In this document: one piece after another, positions 28,308 to 59,780 of the stretch
How the letters are laid out: the number at the start of each line of letters is the position of its first letter
Numbering within the stretch: the first letter of the stretch is position 1
Assembly (NCBI RefSeq): GCF_032884065.1
Contig: NC_088872.1
Span: forward strand, 8,307,493 to 8,371,492
Direction: 5' to 3'
DNA: 64,000 nucleotides
Origin: Artemia franciscana
Taxonomy: Eukaryota > Arthropoda > Branchiopoda > Anostraca > Artemiidae
Program-made: the position numbers and the translations under genes
Notes under the pieces: generated by a model
What the model was told of the DNA's origin: nothing
Databases searched by the model: none
Seen by the model: the letters and a program-made list of their open reading frames with translations, nothing else

Positions 28308-28319
28308 TCTACACAAAAA

Positions 28320-30617: not shown

Positions 30618-30797
30618 GGCAATGAACGTGACCTATGATGACCGAAACAACAAATATTGATCAGGACTTGCTCAATAGGGACTTTTTAGTGTGTGGACGG
30701 ACCGGGAGACGTAATGCACTGCCAGAATTACAAGGGAGTTTTGCTGTTGTATCCACTGCCGGGCTACCGGAAGCCCTAGAAGGATTATCCTGTGGTG
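30618..30797 (+). CDS. PKI: cAMP-dependent protein kinase inhibitor (PKI family), coding exon
   Basis: PKI proteins are small heat-stable inhibitors. They occupy the catalytic cleft of the free PKA catalytic subunit as a pseudosubstrate and carry it out of the nucleus. The exon follows a good acceptor (CCTTTCAG, 30617/30618) and ends at an optimal donor (G|GTGAGT, 30797/30798), phase 1. It can start at ATG 30635 or 30638; the second has the better context and gives the usual MT start. The pseudosubstrate FLVCGRTGRRNAL is intact. Counting from 30635: F17 for the hydrophobic P-11 pocket, R22, R25, R26, Ala28 in place of Ser/Thr, then Leu. Leucine-spaced AGLPEALEGLS then fits the nuclear export signal. 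About 54 codons are here; the family is usually ~75, so a short last exon is missing, probably beyond the window. Lysine-rich read-through past the donor shows no PKI similarity. The exon's 3' part reappears at 45155-45235. Confidence 0.87.
30622..30660 (+). promoter_or_regulatory. Short upstream ORF overlapping the PKI start
   Basis: ATG at 30622 opens a 12-codon frame ending TGA at 30658-30660. It runs across both possible PKI start codons (30635, 30638) in the +1 frame. If the transcript includes 30618 onward, ribosomes must leaky-scan past it or reinitiate, which would lower PKI synthesis. Inference only. Confidence 0.45.
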
Positions 30798-30964
30798 GTG
30801 AGTCAAAGTTGTTCCATTTGACAAGGCAACATGTGACACTAACAATAAATTTTAATTGTAAAGACACGTCCAAAAAATTAAATAAAAAGACTTATGTCAA
30901 TGCTCGTCAACCAGGATATACGCATAGGGAGACGGGGGATTATAGCCGCTGCTGCAGGAACAGC

Positions 30965-31240
30965 ATGGTATTTGTGACTTCACCAAATTTTTCTAAGTTT
31001 TCTTTAGTTTGACGAGTACTTTTGGTCCACATTTCTTATCGCTGGTACATTTTAACATGGTATTTGTGATTTCACTAAATTTTTCTAAGTTTTTTTTAGT
31101 TTAAGAAGTACTTTTGATCCAAAATTTCTTATCGTTAGTGAATTTTAACATGGTATTTGTGATTTCACAAAATTTTTCTAAGCTTTCTTTAGTTTGACGA
31201 GTATTTTTGGTTCAAATTCTTATCGTTTGTGCATTTTAAC
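30965..31240 (+). repeat. 93-bp tandem repeat, three units, in the PKI intron (copy A)
   Basis: Units start with ATGGTATTTGTGA at 30965, 31057 and 31150 (periods 92 and 93) and share TTTTTCTAAG and TTCTTATCG. Counterpart at 45403-45678. Confidence 0.88.
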
Positions 31241-32360
31241 GTGAAGTTTCTCATCTTGTAGCTTTTATCGGAGGTCCCTCTTTTCATGGAAATATCATAT
31301 TTATTTAAATCGTATATTGTGACGTTTAATTATATTTCTATTCCAGCCCTCTTTTCTTCAAATGCTTCCAAAAATTCACTTAGTTTCTCTGTATTTAACC
31401 AAGTAAAATGTTGGTTACCTGCACAGTAAAGACTGTTTAGTGCCCCCCTCCCCCTGTTTTGACATATGTCTTATTCAAATATCTTCATCAATAAATAAAT
31501 AAGTATCTAGAGTTGAATAAAAACCTCTGATTAATTTTTTCCCCAACTTTACTGTAAAGTTATGTTAGAAAACAACGAATTTGGTTTTGAGAAATAATTC
31601 GGTGGAGATTTAATTTCGGTGGAGATTTCTTAAATTTTTTGATTTTGATAGAAACTTATTTGATTTTAATATTGAAGTATCGAATTGGAATGCAAGAGCT
31701 TTTGCTAGAAAGAGGAATATGGCAACTCTGACGTGAAATATCACGTGAAAATATCTTCAGTTTTGCTAAAAAAAAAAAAAAAAACAGAAATTGGTTTTTG
31801 TGTGATGGTACAATAAAGTGGAGAGAAGACCACCGATACTTGTTTATTATATAAAACCCACTTAATAAGTAAAGCTTGGTTAATACTAATGAAAAAAACA
31901 AAATATGATGAAAATAGAATACTTTATTAGCAAAATTGTGAAAATTACAACTTGGAAACATGCTCCCAGGACGCAGTGTTTTGTTTTGGGCAACAACCCC
32001 TTATCCTGGAAAAATATATTTGCCTGTTCCTCGGTCCTTGGCAAATCCCAGATCTTAATTTGAACATCCACGGTGAGACATTATATTCTATTACTAGTCA
32101 AATTAAACTAACCGGTGTCCTCAAGAATTGCATTAATAATGAACTAGGCCAAGAATTGCGTTAACAATGAACTTTTCTTTGTCTTTGAGACGGTCAGCTG
32201 ATGCCGAAGCTCCCAATTTGGTAATTCACAAATGACCTTCACAATTTTGCTAATAGAGTATTCTAATTTCATTATATTTTATTGTCACCATTCTTCACTT
32301 CTCGAGCGTGTTTTATGTAATATACAATTACCAGACCACCTATGCCTAATACAAATTAAA
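31241..32360. other. PKI intron sequence without recognised element (copy A)
   Basis: AT-rich. The two copies differ here by a small rearrangement near 31602 (copy B carries ~14 extra bases near 46038). The short open frames are closed off by stops and have no domain. Confidence 0.5.
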
Positions 32361-32521
32361 TTAAAAAAAAAAACGAGTTTTTTCTACTGAAGGTAAGGAG
32401 CAACATTAAAGCTTAAAACGGACAGAAATTATTACGTATATGAAGGGCGTTGCCCCCTCCTCAACACCTAACTCTTTACGCTAAAGTTTTTAATGATTTT
32501 AAAAAAGCGTCTTATTATTCT
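32361..32521 (+). repeat. Half copy (left arm) of the hairpin repeat (copy A)
   Basis: Carries GGTAAGGAGCAACATTAAAG, ATTATTACGTATATGA, CTCAACACC and CTCTTTACGCTAAAG in left-arm order and joins directly to the full hairpin at 32522. Confidence 0.7.
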
Positions 32522-32822
32522 AATTACATAAAAAAAACTAGTTTTTTTAACTGAAAGTAAGGAGCGACATTAAAACTTAAAACGAAGAGAAATTACTCCG
32601 TATATGAAATGGGTTGTCCCCTCCGCAATCCCTCGCTCTTTACGCTAAAGCTTTTAATTGTTTTAAAAAACAGAATTGTGGCAAAGAGACAAACATTAGC
32701 GTAAAGAGCGAGGGATTGCGGAGGGGACAACCCATTTCATATAAGGAGTAATTTCTGTTCGTTTTAAGTTTTAATGTCGCTCCTTACTTTCAGTTAAAAA
32801 AAATAGTTTTTTTTATGTAATT
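32522..32822. mobile_element. Complete hairpin element, 301 bp, arms ~120 bp (copy A)
   Basis: A near-perfect inverted repeat from AATTACATAAAAAAAACTA to its complement ending ATGTAATT. Arms carry AAGTAAGGAGCGACATTAAA, GGGTTGTCCCCTCCGCAATC and CCTCGCTCTTTACGCTAAAG and their complements around a short AT centre. It has no coding capacity. The family is present many times in the window, so I call it MITE-like. Counterpart at 46971-47271. Confidence 0.85.
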
Positions 32823-33106
32823 TCTGAACGTTTTTGAATTAATGCATGTTTGATTTTGGTTCTCCACACATCAATTATTAAAATGAAATTTGTATATTAA
32901 TTCCTTTTTTGGCTAAATGGCTTTCTCTTAGTTTTTATCAGACGATTTTGAGAGATAAAGAGTGGGGAAAGAGGCATAGTTGCCCTGCAATTTTTCGGTT
33001 ACATAAAAAGGCAACTATAAATTTTAATTTTTAACGAATATTTTTATTAGTAAAAAATATACGTAACTTAAGAATTAACTTACGTAACAAACTTTTATAT
33101 TCTTAA

Positions 33107-33385
33107 ATTTTTATTATGTATCTGAGGGGGTTTGTACCCTCGTTAATACCCCGCTCTTTACACTAAATCGTAAGTTTTGTCCCAATTCTTTAAGAAAGAC
33201 CCCTGAATCAGAAAGGCCGTAGAATAAATAATTGAAATTACTAAAAACACTATAGCATAAAGAGCGAGGTATTTATCTCCTCCTAAATACCTCGCTCTTT
33301 ATGCTAAAGTATTTTTAGAACCCCTCATATGCGTAATAATCTCTGTTCGTTTTAAGTTTCAATGCTACTCCTTACTTTCAATTGA
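33107..33385. mobile_element. Hairpin element with a perfect 23-bp core stem (copy A)
   Basis: Another family member. Its centre has a 23-bp perfect stem (33253-33275 with 33284-33306) around an 8-base loop TCTCCTCC; the outer arms are diverged. Counterpart core at 47702-47755. Confidence 0.8.
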
Positions 33386-34270
33386 AAAAACGTTTTCATG
33401 TTTATTTTTTCATTGTTTTTTATAGTAATTTTAGAAAATCCTGCGCCCTTTTCATTGAATTTCTGTTCCCCCATGACATATTTCTCAAAGGAAAGGTCCT
33501 CCCACATAGCCCCCTCCCCTCAAACCCACAACCCAACCCCCAAAATCAAAAAAAATCCCCTGAAAAGGTCTGTACAATTCCCAATAACCATTATTATATG
33601 TAAACACTGGTCAAAGTTTGTAACTTGCAGCCCCTCCCCCAGGGACTGTGGGGGAGTAAGTCATTCCCAAAGACATAGTTATTATGGTTTTTGACTATGC
33701 AAAAAAAATGGCTATCTCAAAATTTTGATCCGTTGACTTTGGATAAAAAATGAGCGTGGGAGGGGGCCTAGGTGCCCTCCAATTTTTTCGGTCACTTAAA
33801 AAGGGCACTAGAACTTTTCATTTCCGTTAGAATGAGCCCTCTTGCGACATTCTAGGACCACTTGGTCGATACGATGACCCCTGGAAAAAAAAAAAAACAA
33901 ATAAACACGCACCCGTGATTTGTCTTCTGGCAAAAAATACGAAATTCCACATTTTTGTAGATAGGAGCTTGAAATTTTTGCTATAGGGTTCTGTGATACG
34001 CCAAATGTGATGGTGTGATTTTCGTTAAGATTCTATTGCTTTTAGGGGTTGTTTCCCCCTATTTTCCAAAATAAGGCAAATTTTCTCAGGCTCGTAACTT
34101 TTGATGACAAAGATTAAATTTGATGAAACTTATATATTTAAAATCAGCATGAAAATCCGATTCTTTTGATGTATATTTTAGCATCAAAATTCTGTTTTGT
34201 AGAGTTTCGTTTACTATTGAGCCGGGTCGCTCCTTACTACAGTTCGTTACCACGAACTGTTTGATTAAAC
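33386..34270 (+). repeat. R1 dispersed repeat, first copy in block A
   Basis: Recognised by parallel order with the next copy at 34480: C-rich start, CCAGGGACTGTGGGGGAGTA, CAAAGACATAGTTATT, GTGCCCTCCAA, GGGCACTAGAAC, GACCACTTGGTCGATAC, TCTCAGGCTCGTAACTT. It ends in a hairpin, ACAGTTCG-TTACCA-CGAACTGT (34239-34260), followed by TTGATTA. Non-coding. Counterpart at about 47834-48725. Confidence 0.75.
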
Positions 34271-34304
34271 GGCCTTTGTGTTTCACGAGTCATCTTACAT
34301 AATT

Positions 34305-34445
34305 GGGACTAAATTCAAACTTTAGCGTAAAAAGTGATGTGTTGAGGAGGGACAACCCCCTTCATATGCGTAACAATTTCTGTTCGTTTTAAGTTTTAAT
34401 GTTGCTCGTTATTTTCAGTTAAAAAAAAAACTTGTTTTGTCTTTA
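34305..34445 (+). repeat. Right arm of a hairpin repeat between two R1 copies (copy A)
   Basis: Contains CTTTAGCGTAAAAAGTGATG, GAGGAGGGACAACCCCC and TTTTAAGTTTTAATGTTGCT. Counterpart near 48775-48900. Confidence 0.65.
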
Positions 34446-34479
34446 ATTTAATTTCTGATTGCTTTTTAAAAAACGCCAG

Positions 34480-35390
34480 GAAATCTAGCCCCACCTCCAC
34501 GGAGAATTCCCCTCCTCCAAATGGAAATATCATCTAGACAGTTCAATCCCGGTGAAAAGTTACCATGGACAATTACTCTCGACCACTCTGCGCGTAAAAT
34601 TGAGACTGAAAAGAGAAAACAAGACATATGAAAAGAATTTTGTATAAGAATTCTGGCAAGTTTTCGTAGTTTATAATTTTCCCTGGCAAGTTCACTCCCT
34701 GGAAAATTTCCCCGTGGAAAACCCCCCAGCAGAAAATTTGTCCCCCCTCCCGAAAATGTATGCATGCATCCCTATTGTAAAACTATGCGTAAACAATGGG
34801 CAAATTTTATAACTTAAAGATCTTTCCCCTGGGGCTGTGGGGGGCATGTTATACCCAAAGGCATAGTTATTGGGACTTTCAACTATGATAAACAAAATGA
34901 CTATCAACATTTTGATCGGAAGATTAGGGAAACAGTGGCGGAGGAGGGCGCCTAGCTGCCCTCCAGTTTTGTCGCATGAAAAGGGCACTAGAACTCTTAA
35001 TTTCCGTTCGAATGAGCCCTCTCCCGATATTTTAGGACCACTGGGTCGATACAATCATCCCTGGAAAAAATATTTTTGCAGATAGGAACTTGAAACCTAT
35101 GTATCCGGGTTATCTGATACGCTGATTCCGATGGTGTGGTTTTCATTAATATCACTTGACTTTTAGGGGGTGTTTCCTCTTTTTTTTTAAACTATGAAAA
35201 TTTTCTCAGGCTTGTAACCTGTGGTAGGTAATACTGAACTTAGTGAAATTTATATATTTAAAATCAGCATAAAAAGCCAATTCATTGATATATCTATTTG
35301 TATCAAAATTTCGTTTTTAGAGTTTTGGCTACTATTGAACTGGGTCGCTCCTTAATTACGTTTGATTACCACGAACTGTTTGATTAGTAT
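34480..35390 (+). repeat. R1 dispersed repeat, second copy in block A
   Basis: Same landmark order as 33386-34270 and the same terminal CACGAACTGTTTGATTA, though the left half of the hairpin is mutated here. Open frames inside it (for example 34466-34765, minus) are glycine- and proline-rich products of the G/C runs, not genes. Counterpart at about 48935-49845. Confidence 0.75.
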
Positions 35391-35556
35391 ATTTTAGCCA
35401 TATTTTTGCTAAAGGTTAATTTAAGCTAAAGCCATGGATTCGTTTATCTCGGTCATCTTCACTTTTAAGTGCTTCTTACTCAAACATAGGGTCCAGCAGA
35501 ACGTCATTGGAGGTTCTGCTTGAAAAAGTGGGCTATGATGAACTATGGGGACAAGT

Positions 35557-37110
35557 ATGATACAACTACAATATTATTTCAGAATTTTTCACTTTCTCAA
35601 TACCAACCATTCACAAAATATAGTTATGTTTTTGTATAGGCGTTGCATATATTTGTTAATAAAATTGTATAAACTGCTATATTTACCGCTGAGGAATTCT
35701 GTACTTATTTTGATGCATGCCATCCAATCATATTTCCATTATTGGTTGTTTAAAAATCAAAATTTTTACAGGACTATTGTCTTATTTAACGCTAAATCCG
35801 AGCCGATGTTTCAAATTTTTATTTTTGTGCTCAAAAGACATGTCGAGATTTGAACGTTTACATTGAATATGTGGAAATCTCAAGATTAAGAAAAATAATT
35901 AGAAATCTACCACAGCTTAAAACCCTGAGAATTTAAATCCCCAATCTATACCTATCAAATACAAAAATAACAAACACGTATTTGCTTATTTTTTAAGAAG
36001 TATTTCGAATCATATACTTAGTTTGAAGCACATACCTACATGCGTCTTTATTAGAGTTCATATTTTTCTGACGATTTTGGTCTTAATTCGAATATTTTAG
36101 GATGAATAGAAGAGGAAATACTAACCTCGAGCTCAAAACTGACAGGACTCTAGACTGATAGCACTAGCCATTATTAACATTCACCGAAATATTTAGGTAG
36201 AGATTGACCGTGTAATAAATAGATATGAAATAAAGAAATAGGGGAGTAGAAGTTAAGAAATAGACTTTTTCGTTCTTATAAAACTGTGAATTCTGTAATT
36301 TAAGCAAAATATACAAAACTTTAAAAAGTGGAAAGATCCGCTATGTTGTTATGAAAAGTTAAATTTTGATTAGAAAATTCTTATATTTCGTCAAAGTTGA
36401 CATTGTTTATTAAAACATTATTTTAAAAAGAAATAATGACTAGATAATGCTTTATTATTTGTACTTAAGACCCTCGTTTTAAATGTCTTCTATGTATTTC
36501 TGTCTCTTTGTTCTATTTTTCTTGTTACACCACTAAAAGAATAAATATTTAATGTTTAACAGATCTTTTATGAATATAAAAGTTGTATCTTAATCCTCAT
36601 TTCCTACTCTTCATTACTATCATAATTACTAAGCGATGCCACAAAGTTAGGCGACATGCTATATGGTTCAACCTGTGTCACAAAGAAACTTATGACCCCA
36701 AAAGATGGTTCAAGACCTTTTTTTTTTTTTTTTTTTTTTTACAATAAAAAGCTTAACTCACTCTCTATAGTGGTCGGAAGTGCAAAGGCGAAAAATTATG
36801 CAGAAAGCATTAAATATTTTTTTTTATAGATGGTGAACAGCTTTTTAGTTTTTCATTGCGGGGTAGTTTTTGTAACGTACTATTTTTTTATCAATATTTT
36901 TATAGTATTTAAATTTCAACAATTTTATTAGAACTTTAACCCTCACCAGATTTTAGATTAAATTTATGACCATTTCTACTACCTACCTACGACGCATAAT
37001 TGTTGAGGTTCCTTTTGAATTGCTGGTATTTCTTTGCTTGCAAGTTTATCGAAGCAACCTATTATGCGCTCCTCGCTAAAGAAAATCCTGGATCCGCCCC
37101 TGGGTAGACG
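35557..37110 (+). repeat. Dispersed repeat shared with 4262-5625 (copy A)
   Basis: Collinear with the copy at 4.3-5.6 kb but with a few extra blocks, including a pure T run near 36717-36740. Block A carries about 36 bases (36599-36634) that block B lacks near 51043. Counterpart at 50002-51520. Confidence 0.7.
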
Positions 37111-37205
37111 ACTTTTTGCTATTGAGTAACTTTGGGCATATTTTCTTCATTTTTCAAAAGAGTTGAGCCACCTATGCGGGTAGTCATTTATATCCATGAT
37201 TAAAG

Positions 37206-37560
37206 ATTAAAAAAAAAACATGTTTATTCAACTGAAAGTAAGGAGCAAAATTAAAACTTAAAACGAACCGAAAGTATTACGTATATGAGGGGGTTTGCAC
37301 CCTCATCAACACCTCGCTCCTCACGTTAAAGTTTTTCGGAACTTTAAAAAAAGTTGCTTATTATTCTAATTAAACAACCCCTGTGTTTCAGTAGTTGTTT
37401 TTGAAATAACTGGGACTTAAAACTTTAACTTAAAGAGCGAGGTGTTAAGGACGGGGAGACGCCCCTTATATACGTAATAATTTCTGTTCGTTTTAAGTTT
37501 TAATGTTGTTCCTTACTTTCAATTGAAATAAACTATTTTTTTATAATTTAATTTTTGACC
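37206..37560. mobile_element. Hairpin repeat copy (copy A)
   Basis: The left arm (AACTGAAAGTAAGGAGCAAA ... ACACCTCGCTCCTCACG) and right arm (AAAGAGCGAGGTGTTAAGG ... TTTTAATGTTGTTCCTTAC) are inverted copies. Counterpart at about 51618-51960. Confidence 0.75.
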
Positions 37561-38010
37561 GTTAAAAAAAAACGATCAGAATATCTGTTTCTGCTTCCAC
37601 GGAAAAATCCCCTCCCCACTGAAATATCCTCTGAACAATTCAATCCTGGCAAAAATTTACCCCGGGCAATTACATTTAACATCTCCACGCGTAAAATTGA
37701 ATTGATAATGAGAAAGCAAGACATATAAAGAAATTTCGTAAAGGAAATCTGGTAAATTTCCCCAGTGTAAACTTTCTCCTGAAAAGTTCACCCCCTGGAA
37801 ACTTCCCTCCATGGAAAATTCTTCCTATGCAAAATCCCCCCAGCAGAAATGTTGTCCTCCCCTCCCCACCCTAAATATGTATGCATACTTCCCAACAGAT
37901 ACTATACGGAAACAATGGACAAATTTAATAATTTAAAGACCTTTCCCCAGGGGCTTTGGGGGGGGGGGGTCATGTTATCTCCAAAGACATAGTTATTAAA
38001 GCAGGACGGG
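37561..38010 (+). repeat. R1 fragment with long G run (copy A)
   Basis: R1 5' part ending in GGGGCTTT followed by a G run and CATGTTATCTCCAAAGACAT, where the similarity stops abruptly. Counterpart at about 51961-52410. Confidence 0.65.
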
Positions 38011-39315
38011 CTCTCAAGGAATCTTCCTATACCTCCCATGTTAAACATTTGGAGTTTGCCTGACTGTCCTGAATTAGTGATTCCGACGGTTTTTATTTTA
38101 ACAGATATAAAAAAAATTTGGTGAGTATTTTGATCTAATTAAATCTTAAAGCCGACAATTATTTTTTTTATAATTCCAAAATAATTATAAAACCTGCTTC
38201 GGGTTTACATTCTAAATTGCTATACTTGACACTGTTGTTGTGGGGTATCAAAAAATAGAGCAAAAAATATTCTATTCAACAATCAGAAACTTATTTCTAT
38301 AATGTATACTTGCTGGCTGTAGTCCCTTCAAATACTTTACATATTTTGTTGTGTGTTCTGAAGTCAAAAATTCCCCTCAAAACACTAGATGTAGCTGTAA
38401 TTGGAGCGCGTGAGAATAAATTAGACCAAGGGACTAACCCCTCGGATGTTTCTTGAGCGATTCAGTGAAGTATTAGTTAGTTGTAACCGGTTTAAACTGA
38501 GTCCGGAGAATAAGTAGCGTTCAGACCATTGTTGCCACTTATGCCGCATTTTGTGGCATTACGCCGTGATTTTGAGAGAAATGCCGCATAAAATTTTGAT
38601 CATGCCGCACGCCGCGATTATGCCGCGAAATGGCTTTTTATACCGCATTTGTTCCCGTATGTAAAATTTGTCCAACTTTAAGTTTCTGATCTTTTGCAAA
38701 TGTCTTTGTTGCATAAATGGGGATTTCAAAGTTTCGCGGAAGTCAACTACAGACCTTAATTAATGACCCGTCAGTCGCCAGCTTGTCCTCTGGGAGGCCA
38801 GTGTGTTCGAAGGGGGTTGAGTTATTTTTGCGAGTTTGACGAAACTTTGACATTTGAGTTTCTCAGTTCATCTCATGACTTCATGACCTCTGTTAGCTCA
38901 GTCCAAGTGTTTTCAGAAGTGTTTAACACTTCTTCATTTCAATCAAACATTAGACAAAAATGGCCGTTGATGTAGATTAATTTTAGAATTATCTTTTTCA
39001 ATCTTTTTTTTTGTAAGTATATAATTTATATTTTAGTGTTACGAAGGAGTCAAAATAATCGAAGGTCTCTAATAGTGGTTTTACAGAAGGAAACATGCTA
39101 GAACAAAAAGATACTTAAAAGACATAACATAGTTTAAAGATAAAAGTATAATTTGCAAACTATATATCTGCTGCAGCATGTCTCCCTGTGTCTGTGGTTA
39201 TAAACTGTGCTATTCCAGACATTTATGTGCTTTACTCGAAACACTGCATGCTCTGAATAAAACACTACAAATAAATAATATAGCCTATTTGACTGTTCTT
39301 TAGCCTACTAAGATT

Positions 39316-39584
39316 AAAATGAGGACGAAAGTAAAACAGTTCAAAATAGGGATGATACCTTTTTATTGACAGTGAATAGATATAAAATTATTTAACTGGA
39401 TATTTCGAACACATATATGAACACTGTATGATGATGATGAACACTGTATATGTGTTCGAAATATCCAGTTAAATAATTTTATATCTATTCACTGTCAATA
39501 AAAAGGTATCATCCCTATTTTGAACTGTTTTACTTTCGTCATGGAAAGGCAGTGTGGTCTTCGAAGCTATCTAAAATGAGGACG
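39316..39584. mobile_element. Fold-back insertion with perfect 93-bp arms (copy A)
   Basis: Arms 39324-39416 and 39448-39540 are exact reverse complements around a 31-base loop in which ATGAACACTGT is itself repeated. The 12-base word AAAATGAGGACG occurs at 39316-39327 and 39573-39584 and looks like a target duplication around the insertion, because the related host sequence at about 40670 has the site unoccupied. The outermost 29 bases of the right arm (39510-39538) also occur at 12445-12473, at the end of the PWWP/coiled-coil pseudogene. Counterpart 53737-53953 has one mismatch in the stem. Confidence 0.85.
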
Positions 39585-39673
39585 ATTGTACATTATAGCT
39601 TAAATTTCAGTTTTTAAATTCTAGTTCTATGCTTTTAGCTTTGATAATGCAATTTCTACTATTTGAGCAAAAT

Positions 39674-39870
39674 AGTAAAATTCTAGCTTTGCTATCTTAG
39701 AAAGGGGTTTGGTTAGGAGAATGAATAGCCAAGTAAATCCTGGGCAAAAAACTTAGACCTACTCTGGGAAGGTATTTCCAAGCTTCCGTGTTCACCCTCC
39801 TCTGATTTCTAAGTCTTCAAAATTTCCCTACTTGACAGGTCTATATCCATTGAAACTTTGAAAAAATAAT
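39674..39870 (+). repeat. Left arm of a GGTAAA fold-back element (copy A)
   Basis: AGTAAAATTCTAG then GCTATCTTAGAAAGGGG and CACCCTCCTCTGATTTCTAA, as in other family left arms. Lies next to the 93-bp-arm insertion. Counterpart near 54087-54283. Confidence 0.6.
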
Positions 39871-40772
39871 TGTTGTTAAACAGAAGGAAACGTGGTTGAA
39901 CAAAAGATCTTTAAAAGACTGCGTTGAATGGGGAATGGCTTTAGAAATTGCTATGATCCAAAATAATTATAAGTAGATATACGTATAATTTGCAAACTGT
40001 CTTTCCAACGTATCTCCCTGTGGACATATGCTGTTCTACTCCAGACCTTTGTGTGTTGCTGCTCTGTCTTTTGATAAATTTGGAGCAAACCATATAACTA
40101 GCTTTCATAAAAAGTAAATATACCACTTGATGCCTTTTTATATGCTCTTTAGGAATATAATAATCGCTTCTAGTGCAAATTCAGATTTAAGCATTTTTTT
40201 AGCTCTTAAAAATGACAAAACAAAAGTATGACAGTTCATATAACTGACTTGCCAAACAAGCAAGCATGCCACTTGATGCCTTTTCTTACGTTCTTTGCAA
40301 ATATGATAATTGCTTCTACCACATTTTCAAATTTAAGCACTTTTTAAGCTCTAAAAATGACAAATTTTCAATGGAAATACAAGTTATCTCTCATTTCCAA
40401 CAAAATAGTACTATGTTTTCTCTGTGTTATTTTCAGCAAAATAATACTACATTTTATCAGTGCTAAAACTATTTATAATAACGTTAGGTTAGGTTAAAAT
40501 GTACTTGAATCTGAATTTGTGGTAGAAGTTATTAGTGTATTTGTAAAGAGCATAAAAAAGGCATCAAGTGGTAACTTATTGATGGGTTGGATCAAAATGC
40601 TGAACATGCTCAGAACAAAACACTACGAAAAATAATATAGCCTGTTTGTCACTTCTATAGCCTACCTAGATTAGAATGAGGATACAAGTACATTATAGCA
40701 TAAATTTCAGTTTTAATTTCTTGTTCTGTGCTTTTAGTTTTGATATTGTAATTCCTGTCATTTGAGCAAAAT

Positions 40773-41404
40773 GGTAAAATTTTAGAGTTGCTACTTGTTG
40801 CTATCTTGGAAAGGGATTAGGTTAGAAAAAAGAAACTGTCAGTAGTCTTGCAAATCCTGGTAAAAAAAAAAATACTCTGGGAAGGTATTGCCAAGCTTTT
40901 ATGTTCACCCTCCTCTGATTTCTAAGGCTTCAACATTTGCCTATTTGATAGGTCCTATACCTATTGAAACTTTGGAAAAACAACATTTTACCTTAATTTT
41001 CAGTTAACAGTTTCTTTTTCTCTGGTTTTAGTTCTGAAAATGCAATTCCCTGTTGTTTGAGTTACATTTTAAGCCATATCTGTGATTTATTTCTAAATTT
41101 AGGAAATGTTTTTGTGGATCTTTAAAACCTCATAAATTGGTATTGAGCAAAGTTGTGAAGCTGAAAATAGTTTTGTTGTACTTCATTTAAGCAAAAAATC
41201 TATTTTGTAAGGTTTCTCTTTTATATAACAAAGATTTTAAAGGTCATCAAAGGTCAGAGCCCTCTAGAGGGAGGAGTGATGGTAGGTACATCAAAATACC
41301 TTTCTGGTACATGCTTTTAGTCTGTAGACCCGTCCCTTAAAGTTACATTTTATTACCCTAGGCTTTTCCAAGATAGCAAACAGTAGATAGACTAGCATTT
41401 TACC
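40773..41404. mobile_element. Complete GGTAAA fold-back (MULE-like) element nested in the hAT (copy A)
   Basis: Runs from GGTAAAATTTTAG to GCATTTTACC, with AGCAAAAT on the left (40765-40772) and again at 41406-41413 on the right, one base off the terminus. Arms share GCTATCTTGGAAAG and its complement. It is inserted into an older relative of the same family. Counterpart 55185-55817. Confidence 0.7.
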
Positions 41405-41454
41405 AAGCAAAATTTCAGGTCACATCAATTGTTCAGAAATCAGACCAGATTTAA

Positions 41455-41830: not shown

Positions 41831-42108
41831 GCCTGGGCAATGAAAAAACAAGACCAAAGGTTCTATGTGATCCCAAAAATTCAGTATTTAATCCAGACAT
41901 TGGGTTTTGTCTTCGCTAGATCCAGTCTTCGCCAAACTCCTTGAACATTTTTACTCTTAAAGATCTAGAAACAGATTAAGGCCAAATGGCTAATCCTCTG
42001 AGAAAACCAAGATCAGATTTGGATTCAGTATGTGTGTTTACCTCTATAAGTCATATTTATTTTGACGATACCGATCGAAACGATCCTGCCTTCTGCCATT
42101 TTCCAGTT

Positions 42109-42430: not shown

Positions 42431-42567
42431 GGGTTCTCAGCAGGCTGGCAGTGGAAGAAATTAAACTAATCCAGGTTCGTTTCTTTCACCAGCGAGTCAA
42501 TCCATGAAAGAAAGGACATAATAGCTAAATATTTCTCTTGTTTATAGACCAAACGTGTTACAACATA

Positions 42568-47755: not shown

Positions 47756-47833
47756 AAGTATTTTTAGAACCCCCTATATGCGTAATAATCTCTGTTCGTT
47801 TTAAGTTTCAATGCTACTCCTTACTTTCAATTG

Positions 47834-49845
47834 AAAAAACGTTTTCATGTTTATTTTTTCATTGTTTTTTATAGTAATTTTAGAAAATCCTGCGCCCTTT
47901 TCATTGAATTTCTGTTCCCCCATGACATATTTCTCCAAGGAAAGGTCCTCGCACATAGCCCCCTCCCCTCAAACCCACAACCCAACCCCCAAAACCAAAA
48001 AAATCCCCCTGAAAAGGTCTGTACACTTCCCAATAACCATTATTATATGTAAACACTGGTCGAAGTTTGTAACTTGCAGCCCCTCCCCCAGGGACTGTGG
48101 GGGAGTAAGTCATTCCCAAAGACATAGTTATTATGGTTTTTGACTATGCGGAAAAAAATGGCTATCTCAAAATTTTGATCCGTTGACTTTGGAGAAAAAA
48201 TGAGCGTGGGAGGGGGCCTAGGTGCCCTCCAATTTTTTCGGTCACTTAAAAAGGGCACTAGAACTTTTCATTTCCGTTAGAATGAGCCCTCTTGCGACAT
48301 TCTAGGACCACTTGGTCGATACGATGACCCCTGGAAAAAAAAAAAAAACAAACAAATAAACACGCACCCGTGATTTGTCTTCTGGCAAAAAATACGAAAT
48401 TCCACATTTTTGTAGATAGGAGCTTGAAATTTTTGCTATAGGGTTCTCTGATACGCCAAATGCGATGGTGTGATTTTCGTTAAGATTCTATTGCTTTTAG
48501 GGGTTGTTTCCCCCTATTTTCCAAAATAAGGCAAATTTTCTCAGGCTCGTAACTTTTGATGACAAAGATTAAATTTGATGAAACTTATATATTTAAAATC
48601 AGCATGAAAATCCGATTCTTTTGATGTATATTTTAGCATCAAAATTCTGTTTTGTAGAGTTTCGTTTACTATTGAGCCGGGTTGCTCCTTACTACAGTTC
48701 GTTACCACGAACTGTTTGATTAAACGGCCTTTGTGTTTCACGAGTCATTCTTAAAGAATTGGGACTAAATTCAAACTTTAGCGTAAAAAGTGATGTGTGG
48801 AGGAGGGACAACCCCCTTCATATACGTAATAATTTCTGTTTGTTTTAAGTTTTAATGTTGCTCGTTATTTTCAGTTAAAAAAAAAACTTGTTTTGTCTTT
48901 AATTTAATTTCTGATTGCATTTTAAAAAACGCCAGGAAATCTAGCCCCACCTCCACGGAGAATTCCCCTCCTCCAAATGGAAATATCATCTAGACAGTTC
49001 AATCCCGGTGAAAAGTTACCATGGACAATTACTCTCGACCACTCTGCGCGTAAAATTGAGACTGAAAAGAGAAAACAAGACATATGAAAAGAATTTTGTA
49101 TAAGAATTCTGGCAAGTTTTCGTAGTGTATAATTTTCCCTGGCAAGTTCACTCCCTGGAAAATTTCCCCGTGGAAAACCCCCCAGCAGAAAATTTGTCCC
49201 CCCTCCCGAAAATGTATGCATGCATCCCTATTGTAAAACTATGCGTAAACAATGGGCAAATTTTATAACTTAAAGATCTTTCCCCTGGGGCTGTGGGGGG
49301 CATGTTATACCCAAAGGCATAGTTATTGGGACTTTCAACTATGATAAACAAAATGACTATCAACATTTTGATCGGACGATTAGGGAAACAGTGGCGGAGG
49401 AGGGCGCCTAGCTGCCCTCCAGTTTTGTCGCATGAAAAGGGCACTAGAACTCTTAATTTCCGTTCGAATGAGCCCTCTCCCGATATTTTAGGACCACTGG
49501 GTCGATACAATCATCCCTGGAAAAAATATTTTTGCAGATAGGAACTTGAAACCTATGTATCAGGGTTATCTGATACGCTGATTCTGATGGTGTGGTTTTC
49601 ATTAATATCACTTGACTTTTAGGGGGTGTTTCCTCTTTTTTTTAAACTATGAAAATTTCCTCAGGCTTGTAACCTGTGGTAGGTAATACTGAACTTAGTG
49701 AAATTTATATATTTAAAATCAGCATAAAAAGCCAATTCATGGATATATCTATTTGCATCAAAATTTCGTTTTTAGAGTTTCGGCTACTATTGAGCTGGGT
49801 CGCTCCTTAATTACATTTCGTTACCATGAACTGTTTGATTAGTAT
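47834..49845 (+). repeat. Two R1 repeats with an intervening hairpin arm (copy B)
   Basis: Counterpart of 33386-35390: R1 at ~47834-48725, hairpin arm at ~48775-48900, R1 at ~48935-49845. The terminal hairpin ACAGTTCG...CGAACTGT of the first R1 is intact. Confidence 0.75.
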
Positions 49846-50001
49846 ATTTTAGCCATATTTTTGCTAAAAGTTAATTTAAGATAAAGCCATGAGATTGTCA
49901 TCTTCACTTTTGAGTGCTTCTTACTCAAACATAGGGTCCAGCAGAACGTCATTGGAGGTTCTGCTTGAAAAAGTGGGCTATGATGAACTATGGGGACAAG
50001 T

Positions 50002-51520
50002 ATGATACAACTACAATATTATTTCAGAATTTTTCACTATCTCAATACCAACCATTCACAAAATATAGTTATGTTTTTGTATAGGCGTTGCATATATTTG
50101 TTAATAAAATTGTATAAACTGCTATATTTACCGCTGAGGAATTCTGTACTTATTTTGATGCATGCCATCCAATCATATTTCCATTATTGGTTGTTTAAAA
50201 ATCAAAATTTTTACAGGACTATTGTCTTATTTAACGCTAAATCTGAGCCGATGTTTCAAATTTTTATTTTTGTGCTCAAAAGACATGTCGAGATTTGAAC
50301 GTTTACATTGAATATGTGGAAATCTCAAGATTAAGAAAAATAATTAGAAATCTACCACAGCTTAAAACCCTGAGAATTTAAATCCCCAATCTATACCTAT
50401 CAAATACAAAAATAACAAACACGTATTTGCTTATTTTTTAAAAAGTATTTCGAATCATATACTTAGTTTGAAGCACATACCTACATGCGTCTTTATTAGA
50501 GTTCATATTTTTCTGACGATTTTGGTCTTAATTCGAATATTTTAGGATGAATAGAAGAGGAAATACTAACCTCGAGCTCAAAACTGACAGGACTCTAGAC
50601 TGATAGCACTAGCCATTATTAACATTCACCGAAATATTTAGGTAGAGATTGACCGTGTAATAAATAGATATGAAATAAAGAAATAGGGGAGTAGAAATTA
50701 AGAAATATACTTTTTAGTTCTTATAAAACTGTGAATTCTGTAATTTACGCAAAATATACAAAACTTTAAAAAGTGGAAAGATCCGCTATGTTGTTATGAA
50801 AAGTTAAATTTTGATTAGAAAATTCTTATATTTCGTCAAAGTTGACACTGTTTATTAAAACATTATTTTAAAAAGAAATAATGACTAGATAATGCTTTAT
50901 TATTTGTACTTAAGACCCTCGTTTTAAATGTCTTCTATGTATTTCTGTCTCTTTGTTCTATTTTTCTTGTTACACCACTAAAAGAATAAATATTTAATGT
51001 TTAACAGATCTTTTATGAATATAAAAGTTGTATCTTAATCCTCAAGTGATGCCACAAAGTTAGGCGACATGCTATATGGTTCAACCTGTGTCACAAAGAA
51101 ACTTATGACCCCAAAAGATGGTTCAAGACCTTTTTTTTTTTTTTTTTTTTTTTACAATAAAAAGCTTAACTCACTCTCTATAGTGGTCGGAAGTGCAAAG
51201 GCGAAAAATTATGCAGACAGCATTAAGTATTTTTTTTATAGATGGTGAACAGCTTTTTAGTTTTTCATTGCGGGGTAGTTTTTGTAACGTACTATTTTTT
51301 TATCAATATTTTTATAGTATTTAAATTTCAACAATTTTATTAGAACTTTAACCCTCACCAGATTTTAGATTAAATTTATGACCATTTCTACTACCTACCT
51401 ACGACGCATAATTGTTGAGGTTCCTTTTGAATTGCTGGTATTTCTTTGCTTGCAAGTTTATCGAAGCAACCTATTATGCGCTCCCCGCTAAAGAAAATCC
51501 TGGATCCGCCCCTGGGTAGA
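50002..51520 (+). repeat. Dispersed repeat shared with 4262-5625 (copy B)
   Basis: Counterpart of 35557-37110; lacks about 36 bases near 51043 that copy A has. Confidence 0.7.
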
Positions 51521-51617
51521 CGACTTTTTGCTATTGAGTAACTTTGGGCATATTTTCTTCATTTTTCAAAAGAGTTGAGCCACCTATGCGGGTAGTCATT
51601 TATATCCATGATTAAAG

Positions 51618-52410
51618 ATAAAAAAAAACATGTTTATTCAACTGAAAGTAAGGAGCAAAATTAAAACTTAAAACGAACCGAAAGTATTACGTATATGAGG
51701 GGGTTTGCACCCTCATCAACACCTCGCTCCTCACGTTAAAGTTTTTCGGAACTTTAAAAAAAGTTGCTTATTATTCTAATTAAACAACCCTTGTGTTTCA
51801 GTAGTTGTTTTTGAAATAACTGGGACTTAAAACTTTAACTTAAAGAGCGAGGTGTTAAGGACGGGGAGACGCCCCTTATATACGTAATAATTTCTGTTCG
51901 TTTTAAGTTTTACTGTTGTTCCTTACTTTCAATTGAAATAAACTGTTTTTTTTTTTATTTAATTTCTGACCATTTAAAAAAAAAACGATCGGAATATCTG
52001 GTTCTGCTTTCACGGAAAAATCCCCTCCCCACTGAAATATCCTCTGAACAATTCAATCCTGGCGAAAATTTACCCCGGACAATTACATTTAACATCTCCA
52101 CACGTAAAATTGAACTGGTAAAGAGAAAGCAAGACATATAAAGAAATTTCGTAAAGGAATTCTGTTAAATTTCCCCAGTGAAAAATTTCATATGAAAAGT
52201 TTACCCCCTGGAAACTTCCCTCCATGGAAAATTCTTCCTATGCAAAATCCCCCCAGCAGAAATGTTGTCCTCCCCTCCCCACCCTAAATATGTATGCATA
52301 CTTCCCAACAGATACTATACGGAAACAACGGACAAATTTAATCATTTAAAGACCTTTCCCCAGGGGCTTTGGGGGGGGGGGGTCATGTTATCTCCAAAGA
52401 CATAGTTATT
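51618..52410. repeat. Hairpin repeat plus R1 fragment (copy B)
   Basis: Counterpart of 37206-38010. Confidence 0.7.
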
Positions 52411-53736
52411 AAGGCAGGACGGGCTCTCAAGGAATCTTCCTATAACTCCCATGTTAAACATTTGGAGTTTGCCTGACTGTCCTGAATTAGTGATTCCGGC
52501 GGTTTTTATTTTAACAGATATAAAAAAAATTTGGTGAGTATTTTGATCTAATTAAATCTTAAAGCCGACAATTATTTTTTTTATAATTCCAAAATAATTA
52601 TAAAACCTGCTTCGGGTTTACATTCTAAATTGCTATACTTGACACTGTTGTTGTGGGGTATCAAAAAATAGAGCAAAAAATATTCTATTCAACAATCAGA
52701 AACTTATTTCTATAATGTATACTTGCTGGCTGTAGTCCCTTCAAATACTTTACATATTTTGTTGTGTGTTCTGAAGTCAAAAATTCCCCTCAAAACACTA
52801 GATGCAGCTGTAATTGGAGCGCGTGAGAATAAATTAGACCAAGGGACTAACCCCTCGGATGTTTCTTGAGCGATTCAGTGAAGTATTAGTTAGTTGTAAC
52901 CGGTTTAAACTGAGTCTGGAGAATAAGTAGCGTTCAGACCAGTGTTGCCACTTATGCCGCATTTTGTGGCATTACGCCGTGATTTTGAGAGAAATGCCGC
53001 ATAAAATTTTGATCATGCCGCACGCCGCGATTATGCCGCGAAATGGCTTTTTATACCGCATTTGTTCCCGTATGTAAAATTTGTCCAACTTTAAGTTTCT
53101 TATCTTTTGCAAATGTCTTTGTTGCATAAATGGGGATTTCAAAGTTTCGCGGAAGTCAACTACAGACCTTAATTAATGACCCGTCAGTCGCCAGCTTGTC
53201 CTCTGGGAGGCCAGTGTGTTCGAAGGGGGTTGAGTTATTTTTGCGAGTTTGACGAAACTTTGACATTTGAGTTTCTCAGTTCATCTCATGACTTCATGAC
53301 CTCTGTTAGCTCAGTCCAAGTGTTTTCAGAAGTGTTTAACACTTCTTCATTTCAATCAAACATTAGACAAAAATGGCCGTTGATGTAGATTAATTTTAGA
53401 ATTATCTTTTTCAATCTTTTTTTTTGTAAGTATATAATTTATATTTTAGTGTTACGAAGGAGTCAAAATAATCGAAGGTCTCTAATAGTGGTTTTACAGA
53501 AGGAAACATGCTAGAACAAAAATATACTTAAAAGACATAACATAGTTTAAAGATAAAAGTATAATTTGCAAACTATATATCTGCTGCAGCATGTCTCCCT
53601 GTGTCTGTGGTTATAAACTGTGCTATTCCAGACATTTATGTGCTTTACTCGAAACACTGCATGCTCTGAATAAAACACTACAAATAAATAATATAGCCTA
53701 TTTGACTGTTCTTTAGCCTACTAAGATTAAAATGAG

Positions 53737-53953
53737 GACGAAAGTAAAACAGTTCAAAATAGGGATGATACCTTTTTATTGACAGTGAATAGATATAAAA
53801 TTATTTAACTGGATATTTCGAACACATATATGAACACTGTATGATGATGATGAACACTGTATATGTGTTCGAAATATCCAGTTAAATAATTTTATATCTA
53901 TTCACTGCCAATAAAAAGGTATCATCCCTATTTTGAACTGTTTTACTTTCGTC
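53737..53953. mobile_element. Fold-back with 93-bp arms (copy B)
   Basis: Counterpart of 39324-39540, with a single stem mismatch (CACTGCCAAT in place of CACTGTCAAT). Confidence 0.85.
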
Positions 53954-55184
53954 ATGGAAAGGCAGTGTGGTCTTCGAAGCTATCTAAAATGAGGACGATT
54001 GTACATTATAGCTTAAATTTCAGTTTTTAAATTCTAGTTCTATGCTTTTAGCTTTGATAATGCAATTTCTACTATTTGAGCAAAATAGTAAAATTCTAGC
54101 TTTGCTATCTTAGAAAGGGGCTTGGTTAGGAGAATGAATAGCCAAGTAAATCCTGGGCAAAAAACTTAGACCTACTCTGGGAAGGTATTTCCAAGCTTCC
54201 GTGTTCACCCTCCTCTGATTTCTAAGTCTTCAAAATTTCCCTACTTGACAGGTCTATATCCATTGAAACTTTGAAAAAATAATTGTTGTTAAACAGAAGG
54301 AAACGTGGTTGAACAAAAGATCTTTAAAAGACTGCGTTGAATGGGGAATGGCTTTAGAAATTGCTATGATCCAAAATAATTATAAGTAGATATACGTATA
54401 ATTTGCAAACTGTCTTTCCAACGTATCTCCCTGTGGACATATGCTGTTCTACTCCAGACCTTTGTGTGTTGCTGCTGTCTTTTGGTAAATTTGGAGCAAA
54501 CCATATAACTAGCTTTCATAAAAAGTAAATATACCACTTGATGCCTTTTTATATGCTCTTTAGGAATATAATAATCGCTTCTAGTGCAAATTCAGATTTA
54601 AGCACTTTTTTAGCTCTTAAAAATGACAAAACAAAAGTATGACAGTTCATATAACTGACTTGCCAAACAAGCAAGCATGCCACTTGATGCCTTTTCTTGC
54701 GTTCTTTGCAAATATGATAATTGCTTCTACCACATTTTCAAATTTAAGCACTTTTTAAGCTCTAAAAATGACAAATTTTTAATGAAAATACAAGTTATCT
54801 CTCATTTCCAACAAAATAGTACTATGTTTTCTCTGTGTTATTTTCAGCAAAATAATACTACATTTTATCAGTGCTAAAACTATTTATAATAACGTTAGGT
54901 TAGGTTAAAATGTACTTGAATCTGAATTTGTGGTAGAAGTTATTAGTGTATTTGTAAAGAGCATAAAAAAGGCATCAAGTGGTAATTTATTGATGGTTTG
55001 GATCAAAATGCTGAACATGCTCAGAACAAAACACTACGAAAAAATAATATAGCCTGTTTGTCACTTCTATAGCCTACCTAGATTAGAATGAGGATACAAG
55101 TACATTATAGCATAAATTTCAGTTTTAATTTCTTGTTCTGTGCTTTTAGTTTTGATATTGTAATTCCTGTCATTTGAGCAAAAT

Positions 55185-55817
55185 GGTAAAATTTTAGAGT
55201 TGCTACTTGTTGCTATCTTGGAAAGGGATTAGGTTAGAAAAAAGAAACTGTCAGTAGTCTTGCAAATCCTGGTAAAAAAAAAATATACTCTGGGAAGGTA
55301 TTGCCAAGCTTTTATGTTCACCCTCCTCTGATTTCTAAGGCTTCAACATTTGCCTATTTGATAGGTCCTATACCTATTGAAACTTTGGAAAAACAACATT
55401 TTACCTTAATTTTCAGTTAACAGTTTCTTTTTCTCTGGTTTTAGTTCTGAAAATGCAATTCCCTGTTGTTTGAGTTACATTTTAAGCCATATCTGTGATT
55501 TATTTCTAAATTTAGGAAATGTTTTTGTGGATCTTTAAAACCTCATAAATTGGTATTGAGCAAAGTTGTGAAGCTGAAAATAGTTTTGTTGTACTTCATT
55601 TAAGCAAAAAATCTATTTTGTAAGGTTTCTCTTTTATATAACAAAGATTTTAAAGGTCATCAAAGGTCAGAGCCCTCTAGAGGGAGGAGTGATGGTAGGT
55701 ACATCAAAATACCTTTCTGGTACATGCTTTTAGTCTGTAGACCCGTCCCTTAAAGTTACATTTTATTACCCTAGGCTTTTCCAAGATAGCAAACAGTAGA
55801 TAGACTAGCATTTTACC
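55185..55817. mobile_element. Nested GGTAAA fold-back (MULE-like) element (copy B)
   Basis: Counterpart of 40773-41404, with the same AGCAAAAT flanks. Confidence 0.7.
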
Positions 55818-55867
55818 AAGCAAAATTTCAGGTCACATCAATTGTTCAGAAATCAGACCAGATTTAA

Positions 55868-56243
55868 TTAGAAATATTCTCTTCCCCAGTTCAAATATCT
55901 GGGGGAGTCGAGGGATGGTTAATTCAGAAAAAATAGAAAAATTGAGGTATTTTTAACTTACAAAGGGGTGAATGGCTTGTAATGAAATTTGATATTTAGA
56001 AGGATCTTATTTTAAACTTCAGAGCTCTTATTTTAAGTCCTGACTAGATCTGGTGATATTGGGGGGAATTGGAGAGAGAAACCAGTGGAAAATGCCTAGA
56101 GTGAGTGGAAAGATCAGGATGAAACGTGATGGGATGAATAAGCACAAGTCCTAGATACATGATTGAAATAACCAGACTGGGTCTGCTCTCTTTGGAGGAG
56201 TTGGGGGGTTCAGTGCTTTGGCAAGTTTGGTGCTTCTGAACGT
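55868..56243 (+). repeat. Single satellite-type unit (copy B)
   Basis: Counterpart of 41455-41830. Confidence 0.75.
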
Positions 56244-56521
56244 GCCTGGGCAATGAAAAAACAAGACCAAAGGTTCTATGTGATCCCAAAAATTCAGTAT
56301 TTAATCCAGACATTGGGTTTTGTCTTCGCTAGATCCAGTCTTCGCCAAACTCCTTGAACATTTTTACTCTTAAAGATCTAGAAACAGATTAAGGCCAAAT
56401 GGCTAATCCTCTGAGAAAACCAAGATCAGATTTGGATTCAGTATGTGTGTTTACCTCTATAAGTCATATTTATTTTGACGATACCGATCGAAACGATCCT
56501 GCCTTCTGCCATTTTCCAGTT

Positions 56522-56843
56522 TCGCCGAAATTCCGGAGCTACTTGTCTGGCGAAAAATTGAAGCTCAGAAACAAATTTAGCGTATCTCCTTGAGTCCTTA
56601 CCCCTATTTCCACCATCTAGTCAACTTCAAATAAAAAATATACGTATAACAAATTATCCGGTTTCAGCCGGATTCTGGACGAAATATATGTCCGGCTAAA
56701 AAACGATTGTCATATACGGTTTCAGCATGCCCTCTTACCCCGAAATCGAACATCTTATCAACTTCAAATAAAACTTTTTACTTTTAACTAACTTTCTGGT
56801 TTTGGCCAGATTCCCGGCGAAGGATTTATCCGGAAAGAACAAA
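56522..56843 (+). repeat. Diverged ~140-bp tandem repeat upstream of the transposase (copy B)
   Basis: Counterpart of 42109-42430. Confidence 0.65.
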
Positions 56844-56980
56844 GGGTTCTCAGCAGGCTGGCAGTGGAAGAAATTAAACTAATCCAGGTTCGTTTCTTTC
56901 ACCAGCGAGTCAATCCATGAAAGAAAGGACATAATAGCTAAATATTTCTCTTGTTTATAGACCAAACGTGTTACAACATA

Positions 56981-59155
56981 ATGGCAGAAGTGATAGATAT
57001 CGATCAGGAATATGAGGACGGTGATAAAGACTCAGACGATAGTGAACCCTCCAACAAACAACCGAGGATCACAAAGAAAAGGGCAGACCAAAGATACAAG
57101 ACTGAGTAGGAAAGAGAATCTGACTTTAATGAATGGCTACGAAAAGGAAAGGTGCAGACCGGTCAAAACAGTGGATTTATCTCACTGTGTTTACTGCAAA
57201 AAGGATTTCGTTTGTAAAAAATGGAAACAGGACGCAAAAAGGCACAAACAGACCAAAGCTCACGAAGAAAATAAGAAAGCATGGATAACTTCGTCTTCTA
57301 AGACCATGCCATTGAGTCTTTATTTTTCTGGTGATTCAAAAATCGAAAGAGTGGCCACTGTTGAAGCGAAGCTAGTGACATTTCTCGTTGAGCACGATCT
57401 ACCCTATTCGCTTTCTGAAGACTTGCTGAAACTTGTGAAAAGTATGCCAGGCCCAGATCTTCTATGCCAGGCCACTCTTGGTAGAACTAAAGCAACTAAT
57501 ATAGCTCGACAAGCGTTGGCCCCTCATTTTCATGAAAATCTTCTTGAAAGCCTGGAAACGAATCTTTTCTCCGTAGTAATTGACGAGACCACAGATTCCT
57601 GTGTAGCCAAACAACTTGCTGTTTTTGTCAGCTTTTGTGACGAAGCAATGAATGTGCAGGTAGATTTGCTCGCTCTTGTCGAATGCAGCGACGGATCAGC
57701 GTCTGGTCTATTCAACCAGCTAGTGAAGGTGATGGATGATGTCAAGAAGGCAGGTGTTCCTCTACAAAACTGGGTCGGATTCTGCTCTGACACAACGAAT
57801 GCTATGATGGGGATAAACCACTCAGTCAAAACACTTGTTGAAGGGAAATATCCCTGGGTTACAGTTGTGAAATGTAGCTGCCATCTGTGTGCCCTAGTTG
57901 CAAGTCCTGCTTGCAAAAAACTGTCCAAGAGCCTCGAAGATCTATGTCGAACTGTGTGCAATCACTTCAGGCACAGTGCAAAACGCCAAGATGCATATAG
58001 GAAGGAATTTCAAGTCTTTAGTCAAGTGGAACAGCACAGATTCCTTGCTTTGGCTCCAACACGCTGGTTGTCGTTTCAAAACTGTGCACGCCGTATTCTC
58101 GAACAGTGGGATACTCTTACGTTGTACTGGGACTCGTTGGTACTTGATGATCCCTCGCATGTTAATGATCATGTAAGAATGACACTAAACAACCCATACT
58201 GTTGGGAGAGCTGAATGAGTTCAACAGCATCTTCCAGTCTGAAAAACCCCTATTTCACCTCATGAAAACCCAGGGGGAAAAACTTCTTCGGACATTAGCC
58301 ATGAACTTTATGAAGCCTTCATATGTTAGAACAGTCAACCCTTTTGACATCAATCCGCATGACGAAGTGAACTATCTTCCCGACGAAAATGTCTATATCG
58401 GCTACAAAGGGTACGATTTCCTTGTGGGGCTCGAAACGATAGAAGTTACCAGTGGCCGTTTTGTAGCGGAAAGTCTCCGAATTCGTCGCTCCGCGAGGGA
58501 TTTCTACGTTGAAGCTGTTCAACAAATTCTTGACCGTTTTCCATTCTCTGAAAAGATCTACGACCTGGTACACTTGCTTACCCGTAGCTCTAGTTATGAA
58601 CTGAAAGTTCCCAGTCTTCGTCAGTTCTTCGATTACTACGATTCTGCGCTTTGGAATAAAGCAAAGCTAGATCAGGAATGGCGGTCTATACCGAGTGTAG
58701 CTCTACCTAGTACTGTCGATCTCCCTGACGTAGATGACATGGGCATTGTCGTTTACTGGCGCCACATCTTGCAAACGAAGTCACCAAATGGTAGTCGGAT
58801 GTTACCAAATGTCGGGAAAATGGTTCAGTACTTTTTCTCACTCCTTTTCTCAAACGTTATTGCCGAGCGTCTCTTCAGTTTGCTCAAGGAAGTGAAAACT
58901 GATAAGCGAAACCGACTGAGTGCAGTGACTCTTTCGGCAACACTGAAAACCAAGTGTGGCCTTAAGCGCAATTCTTCAAGAGGGCTTGACTCGGGCAAGT
59001 CAGTGCTAGAGCTAGAACCCGGACTAGTCAAGCGTGTACTCAAAGTGAAGGCTAGTGCCTCTTCTCGTGACTATAACGTTTTGAACCAAAGCATTGTGTA
59101 TGGTCCGGCCAAAGATATTGTTTGTGACACACGTGAACAGTCCGATTCCGATTAA
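56981..59155 (+). pseudogene. hAT transposase with zinc finger, DDE core and hATC domain, disabled
   Basis: The enzyme family cuts and pastes the element via its terminal repeats. The N-terminus opens at ATG 56981 with an acidic, then basic stretch; after 42 codons it meets TAG (57107-57109), at a spot where relatives usually have Trp (inference). The frame then shifts. The main frame, 57012-58214 (400 codons), has a BED-like finger (CVYC ... H-x5-H), the first catalytic Asp in VVIDETTD, the second in CSDTTNAM, a CHLCAL motif and TRWLS. It ends just after LNNPYC. A frame change in the overlap near 58169-58214 leads to the second open part, up to 59155. That part holds the hATC dimerisation domain, SNVIAERLFSLLKEVKTDKR, with the catalytic Glu. 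So one nonsense codon and two frameshifts separate it from function. Resembles the domesticated KIAA1586/ZNF862-type hAT branch (from memory). Confidence 0.92.
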
Positions 59156-59226
59156 TCTTGTCTCTTTGGCTTGTATTATTTATCTGAAATTAATCTTGTC
59201 TGTTTGTCTTGTATTATTTATCTGAA
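59151..59226 (+). repeat. 38-bp tandem duplication across the transposase stop codon (copy B)
   Basis: Counterpart of 44738-44813. Confidence 0.85.
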
Positions 59227-59780
59227 TGTCCCTTCTTGAAGCTTTTGATATTGATTTTCATTAAACATTAATCGAAAAAGGTTGAGTTACGAGAATCTAG
59301 TTACCCATCAATTATTCTATTGGATAGACTTGAAGGCCCAAGGGGAAATCACTTTTAATTTCTTCACTATTCACTTCACATTTATACGGTTTTCCCACCG
59401 TGGACTTTCCCTGCTGTGGTACCTCTGCACTTTTACTTCTGTTGCGTGCTTGACGAAAACGATGAACGACAAATGTGTGTTCACGGACTGAGCTGACCAT
59501 GCTTACCTTTGACCGCTGAAAAGAAGGATAGACAACACGTGTTTTCTCAAATTTATGACAGATCTTCACCACACTTCACTTGACACTGAATCAACATTCA
59601 TATTAAAGCGAGATTTTTCACCCATTCTCTCTCAAAAATACAAAACACAGCTTTTCCGAAAATTTCGGGTATGCCGCGGTTTTTACCGCATTTTGGTTCA
59701 AGGATGTCGCGGAAATGCCGCTTTTTGACGAGGCCGGTGCCGCGGAGCGGTGCCGGTCGAGTGGCAACACTGGTTCAGAC

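Follow-up and report, generated by a model that had tools for sequence, protein, structure and literature searches.

A 14.3 kb repeat at an assembly gap on scaffold C10 of Artemia franciscana is very probably one genomic segment assembled twice

The stretch of DNA analysed here, referred to as the window, comprises 64,000 nucleotides at C10:8307493-8371492 of the Artemia franciscana assembly (1,270,528,402 bases in 6468 contigs). It contains a 14.3 kb sequence that is present twice on the plus strand, as block A (30717..45054) and block B (45155..59467), on either side of a placeholder of 100 N at 45055..45154. Block A is the right end of a contig designated contig 1, which stops at the first N, and it overlaps the start of the following contig 2, whose left end is block B. 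The left flank of contig 1 (L, 1..30716) ends in 1.7 kb for which the 1.27 Gb assembly has no second full-length match. The right flank of contig 2 (R, 59468..64000) is matched by a third contig as far as 61991 and beyond that only in patches of lower identity. This contig 3, at C10:9062278, begins on the identical base as block B, and its copy of the sequence is called C. The analysis reported here addresses the origin of the 14.3 kb repeat, which is almost certainly an ordinary assembly error and not a real gene duplication.

The contig ends fall inside two features of the locus. The coding part of an exon of the cAMP-dependent protein kinase inhibitor PKI lies at 30677..30799 on the plus strand (PF02827, E 3.3e-11, residues 16-56 of the open reading frame (ORF) 30632-31012) and straddles base 30717, the base at which contigs 2 and 3 begin. 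Because these contigs begin inside the exon, copies B and C hold it without a start codon. The pseudosubstrate motif of PKI, which we take to lie just before this base, would hence be absent from both. At the other end, a hAT transposase frame at 42584..44742 on the plus strand (56997-59155 in block B) is split over two frames, represented by the ORFs 42584-43801 and 43756-44742. The second ORF matches PF05699 above the cut-off (E 1.9e-5), and the first gave only a sub-threshold match to DUF4371 (E 0.011). The transposase frame, which lies in the stretch where A and B are identical and is split in the same way in both, is probably degenerate. These domain assignments come from a Pfam run on 10 of the 24 window ORFs of at least 110 residues, one of the ten being cut at the gap.

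The 3' part of a high-copy hAT element occupies 57623..59772 on the plus strand, its left limit being the reach of the copies compared. Further copies occur at 38 places with 92-97% identity among the 40 candidates scored of 2234. In six copies compared, the last 14 bases (GAGTGGCAACACTG) are common and the sequence after them differs. Contig 1 stops inside this element, 305 bp before the equivalent of its 3' end at 59772. A search of about 55200-57100 revealed neither a matching 5' terminal repeat nor an 8 bp target-site duplication, and the window yielded no RNA families above threshold and no tRNAs.

A preliminary description, made from the letters of the window, had noted two collinear blocks of about 99% identity, and this was borne out by both alignments applied. 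BLASTN aligned 30717-36599 with 45155-51044 at 98.36% and 36618-45054 with 51031-59467 at 99.28%. A global alignment of the two blocks (14338 and 14313 bases) gave 118 substitutions in 14287 aligned columns, or 0.83%, of which 70 are transitions and 48 transversions, together with 16 indel events of 1-32 bp. The value of 0.83% is compatible with the heterozygosity of 0.655% reported in a survey (PMC7955100) by the group that described the assembly (Jo et al. 2024, PMC11492255). Contig 2 is aligned from its very first base and contig 1 through to its very last, confirming the earlier observation that the left copy ends at the gap and the right copy starts after it. This dovetail is base-exact on both sides of the only run of N in the window, so that a gap of exactly 100 N separates the duplicated pair on one scaffold. 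No A-B junction is present in the assembled sequence, and the copies meet solely at the gap. The two ORFs that cross it, 44842-45450 on the plus and 44958-45329 on the minus strand, are gap artefacts.

All 118 substitutions and all 16 indel events are located in 31042..40871 of block A. The remaining 4183 bp of the block (40872..45054) are identical to 55285-59467 of block B, whereas copy C differs there at 28 sites. At the 1.2% rate of the rest of the A/B overlap, about 50 substitutions would be expected in these 4183 bases. The identity is restricted to this last part of the overlap, and a homozygous stretch would give the same picture. Sequencing errors alone are rejected as the origin of the A/B differences, given 118 substitutions against 16 indel events and the excess of transitions. 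Repeat conversion or mis-mapping was also considered and rejected, as in six comparisons a paralogous repeat agreed with A/B at 13/9, 4/4, 3/8, 1/2, 4/3 and 2/0 of the sites that differ, with no consistent pattern.

The segment 29000-31500 was then compared with the whole assembly, all ten candidates being scored. The part left of 30717 was matched in full only once, with seven short matches of 40-88 bp at 76-93% elsewhere. The part that begins with base 30717 has matches of 99-100% at three places, namely A, B and C10:9062278. The last of these, copy C, lies 0.71 Mb downstream after its own 100-N gap and has the same first base as B. Its collinearity with B extends into the right flank, over 16.8 kb in all and at 98.6% identity. 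The locus is thus present three times in the assembly, not two. The suggestion that gene, hAT and repeat content is doubled here was therefore right as to inflation, but the content is tripled rather than doubled.

The three copies also differ in a way that informs on their relationship. A three-way alignment was evaluated at ungapped sites within the span of A, gapped columns being left out, and it contains 120 A-B substitutions compared with the 118 of the pairwise alignment. There are 157 variable sites, all of them two-state: 104 set A apart, 38 set C apart and 15 set B apart. The site patterns are block-wise, forming 18 runs, whereas 10000 shuffles gave a mean of 78.5 and a minimum of 58 runs (0/10000 as low). 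Along the blocks, B equals C, then A equals C, then A equals B, with a different contig standing apart each time. The borders of the three segments were drawn after the pattern was seen. With these borders, the substitutions AB/AC/BC are 105/113/12 in segment 1 (about 7430 columns), 15/1/13 in segment 2 (about 2680 columns) and 0/28/28 in segment 3 (about 4182 columns). Such block-wise sharing is as predicted by allelic haplotypes with phase switches, unlike fixed tandem paralogs. According to Jo et al. (PMC11492255), the PacBio source was 14 pooled females of one maternal lineage, sequenced from a 20 kb library. Going by the site patterns, the blocks are probably not two readings of one sequence but mosaics that combine stretches of two or more haplotypes present in this pooled sample. 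For such a mosaic, half read depth in each block, which had been proposed as a check on false duplication, is not to be expected everywhere; the identical 4.2 kb tail of A and B will share reads arbitrarily.

Past the shared part, contigs 2 and 3 become dissimilar. Their divergence climbs from about 60.4 kb, with 0.8-6.8% per 250-base bin in 60405-61640, and reaches 10.8 and 9.2% in the next bins toward 61991, so that B-C divergence grows from 0.67% to about 10%. Beyond window position 61991 (C10:9079111 onward in R', the flank of contig 3), the match continues in patches mainly of 81-91%, some repeat-rich ones being lower. The patches keep largely the same order over about 29 kb, to about 91.5 kb in window coordinates, this collinearity being a judgement from hits filtered by offset (<7000) and length (at least 120) out of 535. 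The offset bins at the diagonal hold 7949 and 6548 bits compared with 3942 in the best bin elsewhere, roughly a twofold excess. Over roughly its first 1.5 kb, a 3.2 kb piece of R' has a single listed match besides itself, the collinear place in contig 2 (40 of 2921 candidates being scored), and the remainder of the piece also matches a dispersed repeat. On this evidence, R and R' are likely to be homologous to each other, either as hyperdivergent haplotypes or as old local paralogs with recent exchange. To the right of the shared part, 78 ORFs reach 100 residues or more; Pfam, run on ten of them, gave three reverse transcriptases above the cut-off, two sub-threshold matches (one to an endonuclease, one to a PHD finger and others) and five frames with no match.

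The proposal, already made in the preliminary description, that A and B are unmerged overlapping contigs is supported by the start of the third contig, by the finding of just one left flank and by the block-wise allele sharing. Together these make a strong case for an artefact: the two blocks are very likely one genomic segment assembled twice, that is, a false duplication. One of the earlier arguments has less force than was claimed for it. It held that nothing in a true tandem duplication requires both breakpoints to fall on the gap, but the same dovetail would arise from a repeat unit of more than 14.3 kb if the junction had been lost there. The dovetail alone therefore leaves room for a genuine recent tandem duplication of such a unit, with paralogs about 1% apart, and the A/B differences do resemble real substitutions rather than read errors. 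A tandem origin would, however, demand that a third contig begins on the identical base by chance, that 4183 bp of identity lie beside 1.2% divergence and that the site sharing changes partner twice; a second left flank was not found either, and this origin is considered highly improbable. More improbable still is that the same haplotype was assembled twice with read errors. The lack of any difference between A and B over their last 4183 bp, and the end of contig 1 in a repeat, would fit a pure homotype duplication of this kind, and the identical part alone may be homotype. In 31042-40871, on the other hand, 118 substitutions with an excess of transitions accompany only 16 indel events. The agreement of B and C against A at 104 of the 157 sites points the same way, with less weight as B and C may partly come from the same reads.

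The nature of contig 3 is less settled than that of A and B. Contigs 2 and 3 may be long haplotypes of a single locus on chromosome 10. Starting at the PKI exon, they are about 99% alike for about 15 kb, after which the identity declines within about 1.6 kb to that of patches at 81-91% with large insertions; such a hyperdivergent block is suggested tentatively by the alignments and rated slightly below an even chance. If true, this haplotype block has been hidden since one haplotype was scaffolded 0.71 Mb away. Contig 3 could also be a separate paralogous locus, derived from an old duplication that gave R and R', with its PKI-side 16.8 kb recently copied or converted and with A and B as alleles. 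The largely ordered patches past 61991, the R' piece whose sole other listed match is the collinear contig 2 place, and the growth of B-C divergence toward 61991 are all in keeping with such a locus. Yet contigs 2 and 3 have their first base in common, the search gave a single left flank, and in one segment A and C are grouped together with 1 substitution in 2683, so that a paralogous contig 3 is regarded as a real but minority possibility. It concerns copy C, and a duplication of A and B is not rescued by it.

Several points weigh against the interpretation of A and B as a falsely duplicated segment. B and C differ at 12 substitutions in the 7434 columns where they are grouped together; these differences in segment 1 may reflect a third haplotype or polishing. 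The absence of a second left flank is limited evidence and not proof, because purging could have removed one. The patchy continuation of contigs 2 and 3 at 81-91% is not predicted for ordinary alleles at 0.7% heterozygosity. Finally, no overlap was found between the sides of the gap at C10:9062178-9062277, one of three 100-N gaps examined in about 260 kb of C10, the window included. An exact dovetail is present at the other two, a sample too small to give a fault rate. At the gap C10:9040266-9040365, the left contig end (C10:9035382-9040265) overlaps the right contig start (C10:9040366-9045256) by 4893 bp at 99.53%, in repeat-rich sequence. There, as for A and B, the limits of the overlap coincide with the contig ends.

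The way in which the assembly was made offers a possible route to these overlaps. The pipeline given by Jo et al. (PMC11492255) comprises Peregrine, Purge Haplotigs, 10x scaffolding, Pilon and RagTag on A. sinica, and the paper also records 5.9% duplicated BUSCOs along with a two-copy k-mer peak. Their assembly totals 1,270,721,445 bases in 6486 scaffolds, the longest of 67.3 Mb. The version analysed here differs slightly, its C1 being 71.5 Mb. The same paper counts 21 chromosome-size scaffolds; in the analysed version, C21 has 34.7 Mb and C22 has 0.26 Mb. Genome size has been estimated at about 867 Mb from k-mers in the survey cited above (PMC7955100) and at 930 Mb by flow cytometry, as cited there, and the 1.27 Gb assembly exceeds these two estimates by 37-47%.

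Long reads from the pooled related females would carry at least two haplotypes about 1% apart. The assembler would have followed one version in contig 1 as far as the high-copy hAT element and broken off within it, and contigs 2 and 3 would have started at a shared graph node, window base 30717, inside the PKI exon. Purging, being aimed at contigs contained in others, would leave such end overlaps. Reference-guided scaffolding could then have set contigs 1 and 2 end to start with 100 N, presumably the default gap of RagTag, and placed contig 3 at a distance of 0.71 Mb. In this sequence of events, the graph node, the tool that failed and when, and the allelic status of A, B and C are what we infer.

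In Rhie et al. 2021 (PMC8081667), heterotype false duplications are described alongside homotype overlaps, which occur at contig boundaries and appear as tandem copies with a gap, and a combined form; a gap between the copies is listed among the marks of false duplication by Ko et al. 2022 (PMC9516828). As in the heterotype kind outlined in these two papers, two haplotypes appear to be kept with an assembly gap between them and a divergence near the heterozygosity. Unlike it, three contigs from a pooled sample are involved, the third lies 0.71 Mb away, and the case is known from assembled sequence alone. The gapped "tandem" arrangement and a dovetail of about read length, 14.3 kb here compared with the 20 kb library, resemble the homotype overlap illustrated by Rhie et al. 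(PMC8081667, Extended Data Fig. 5b), in contrast to which only the right 4.2 kb is identical and the rest has haplotype-like differences. Because of this identical right part and haplotype-like remainder, the case corresponds best to their combined type (Extended Data Fig. 6c).

At this locus the counts of genes, hAT elements and repeats are up to three times too high, and the PKI exon, being truncated, may enter the annotation as additional gene copies. Given an assembly 37-47% oversize and the fault at two of three gaps, copy-number and gene-family claims need checking. The remedy is purging of end overlaps, for which purge_dups is named by Rhie et al. (PMC8081667).

Two further repeats are present in the left flank of contig 1. 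A satellite array at 23350-26130 comprises 9.5 copies of a 298 bp period, and its GC skew is strong (0.37 at 24-26 kb). A direct tandem repeat of 197 bp at 27936-28308, with 1.9 copies at 100% identity, points either to a small duplication of very recent origin or to a further slip in the assembly.

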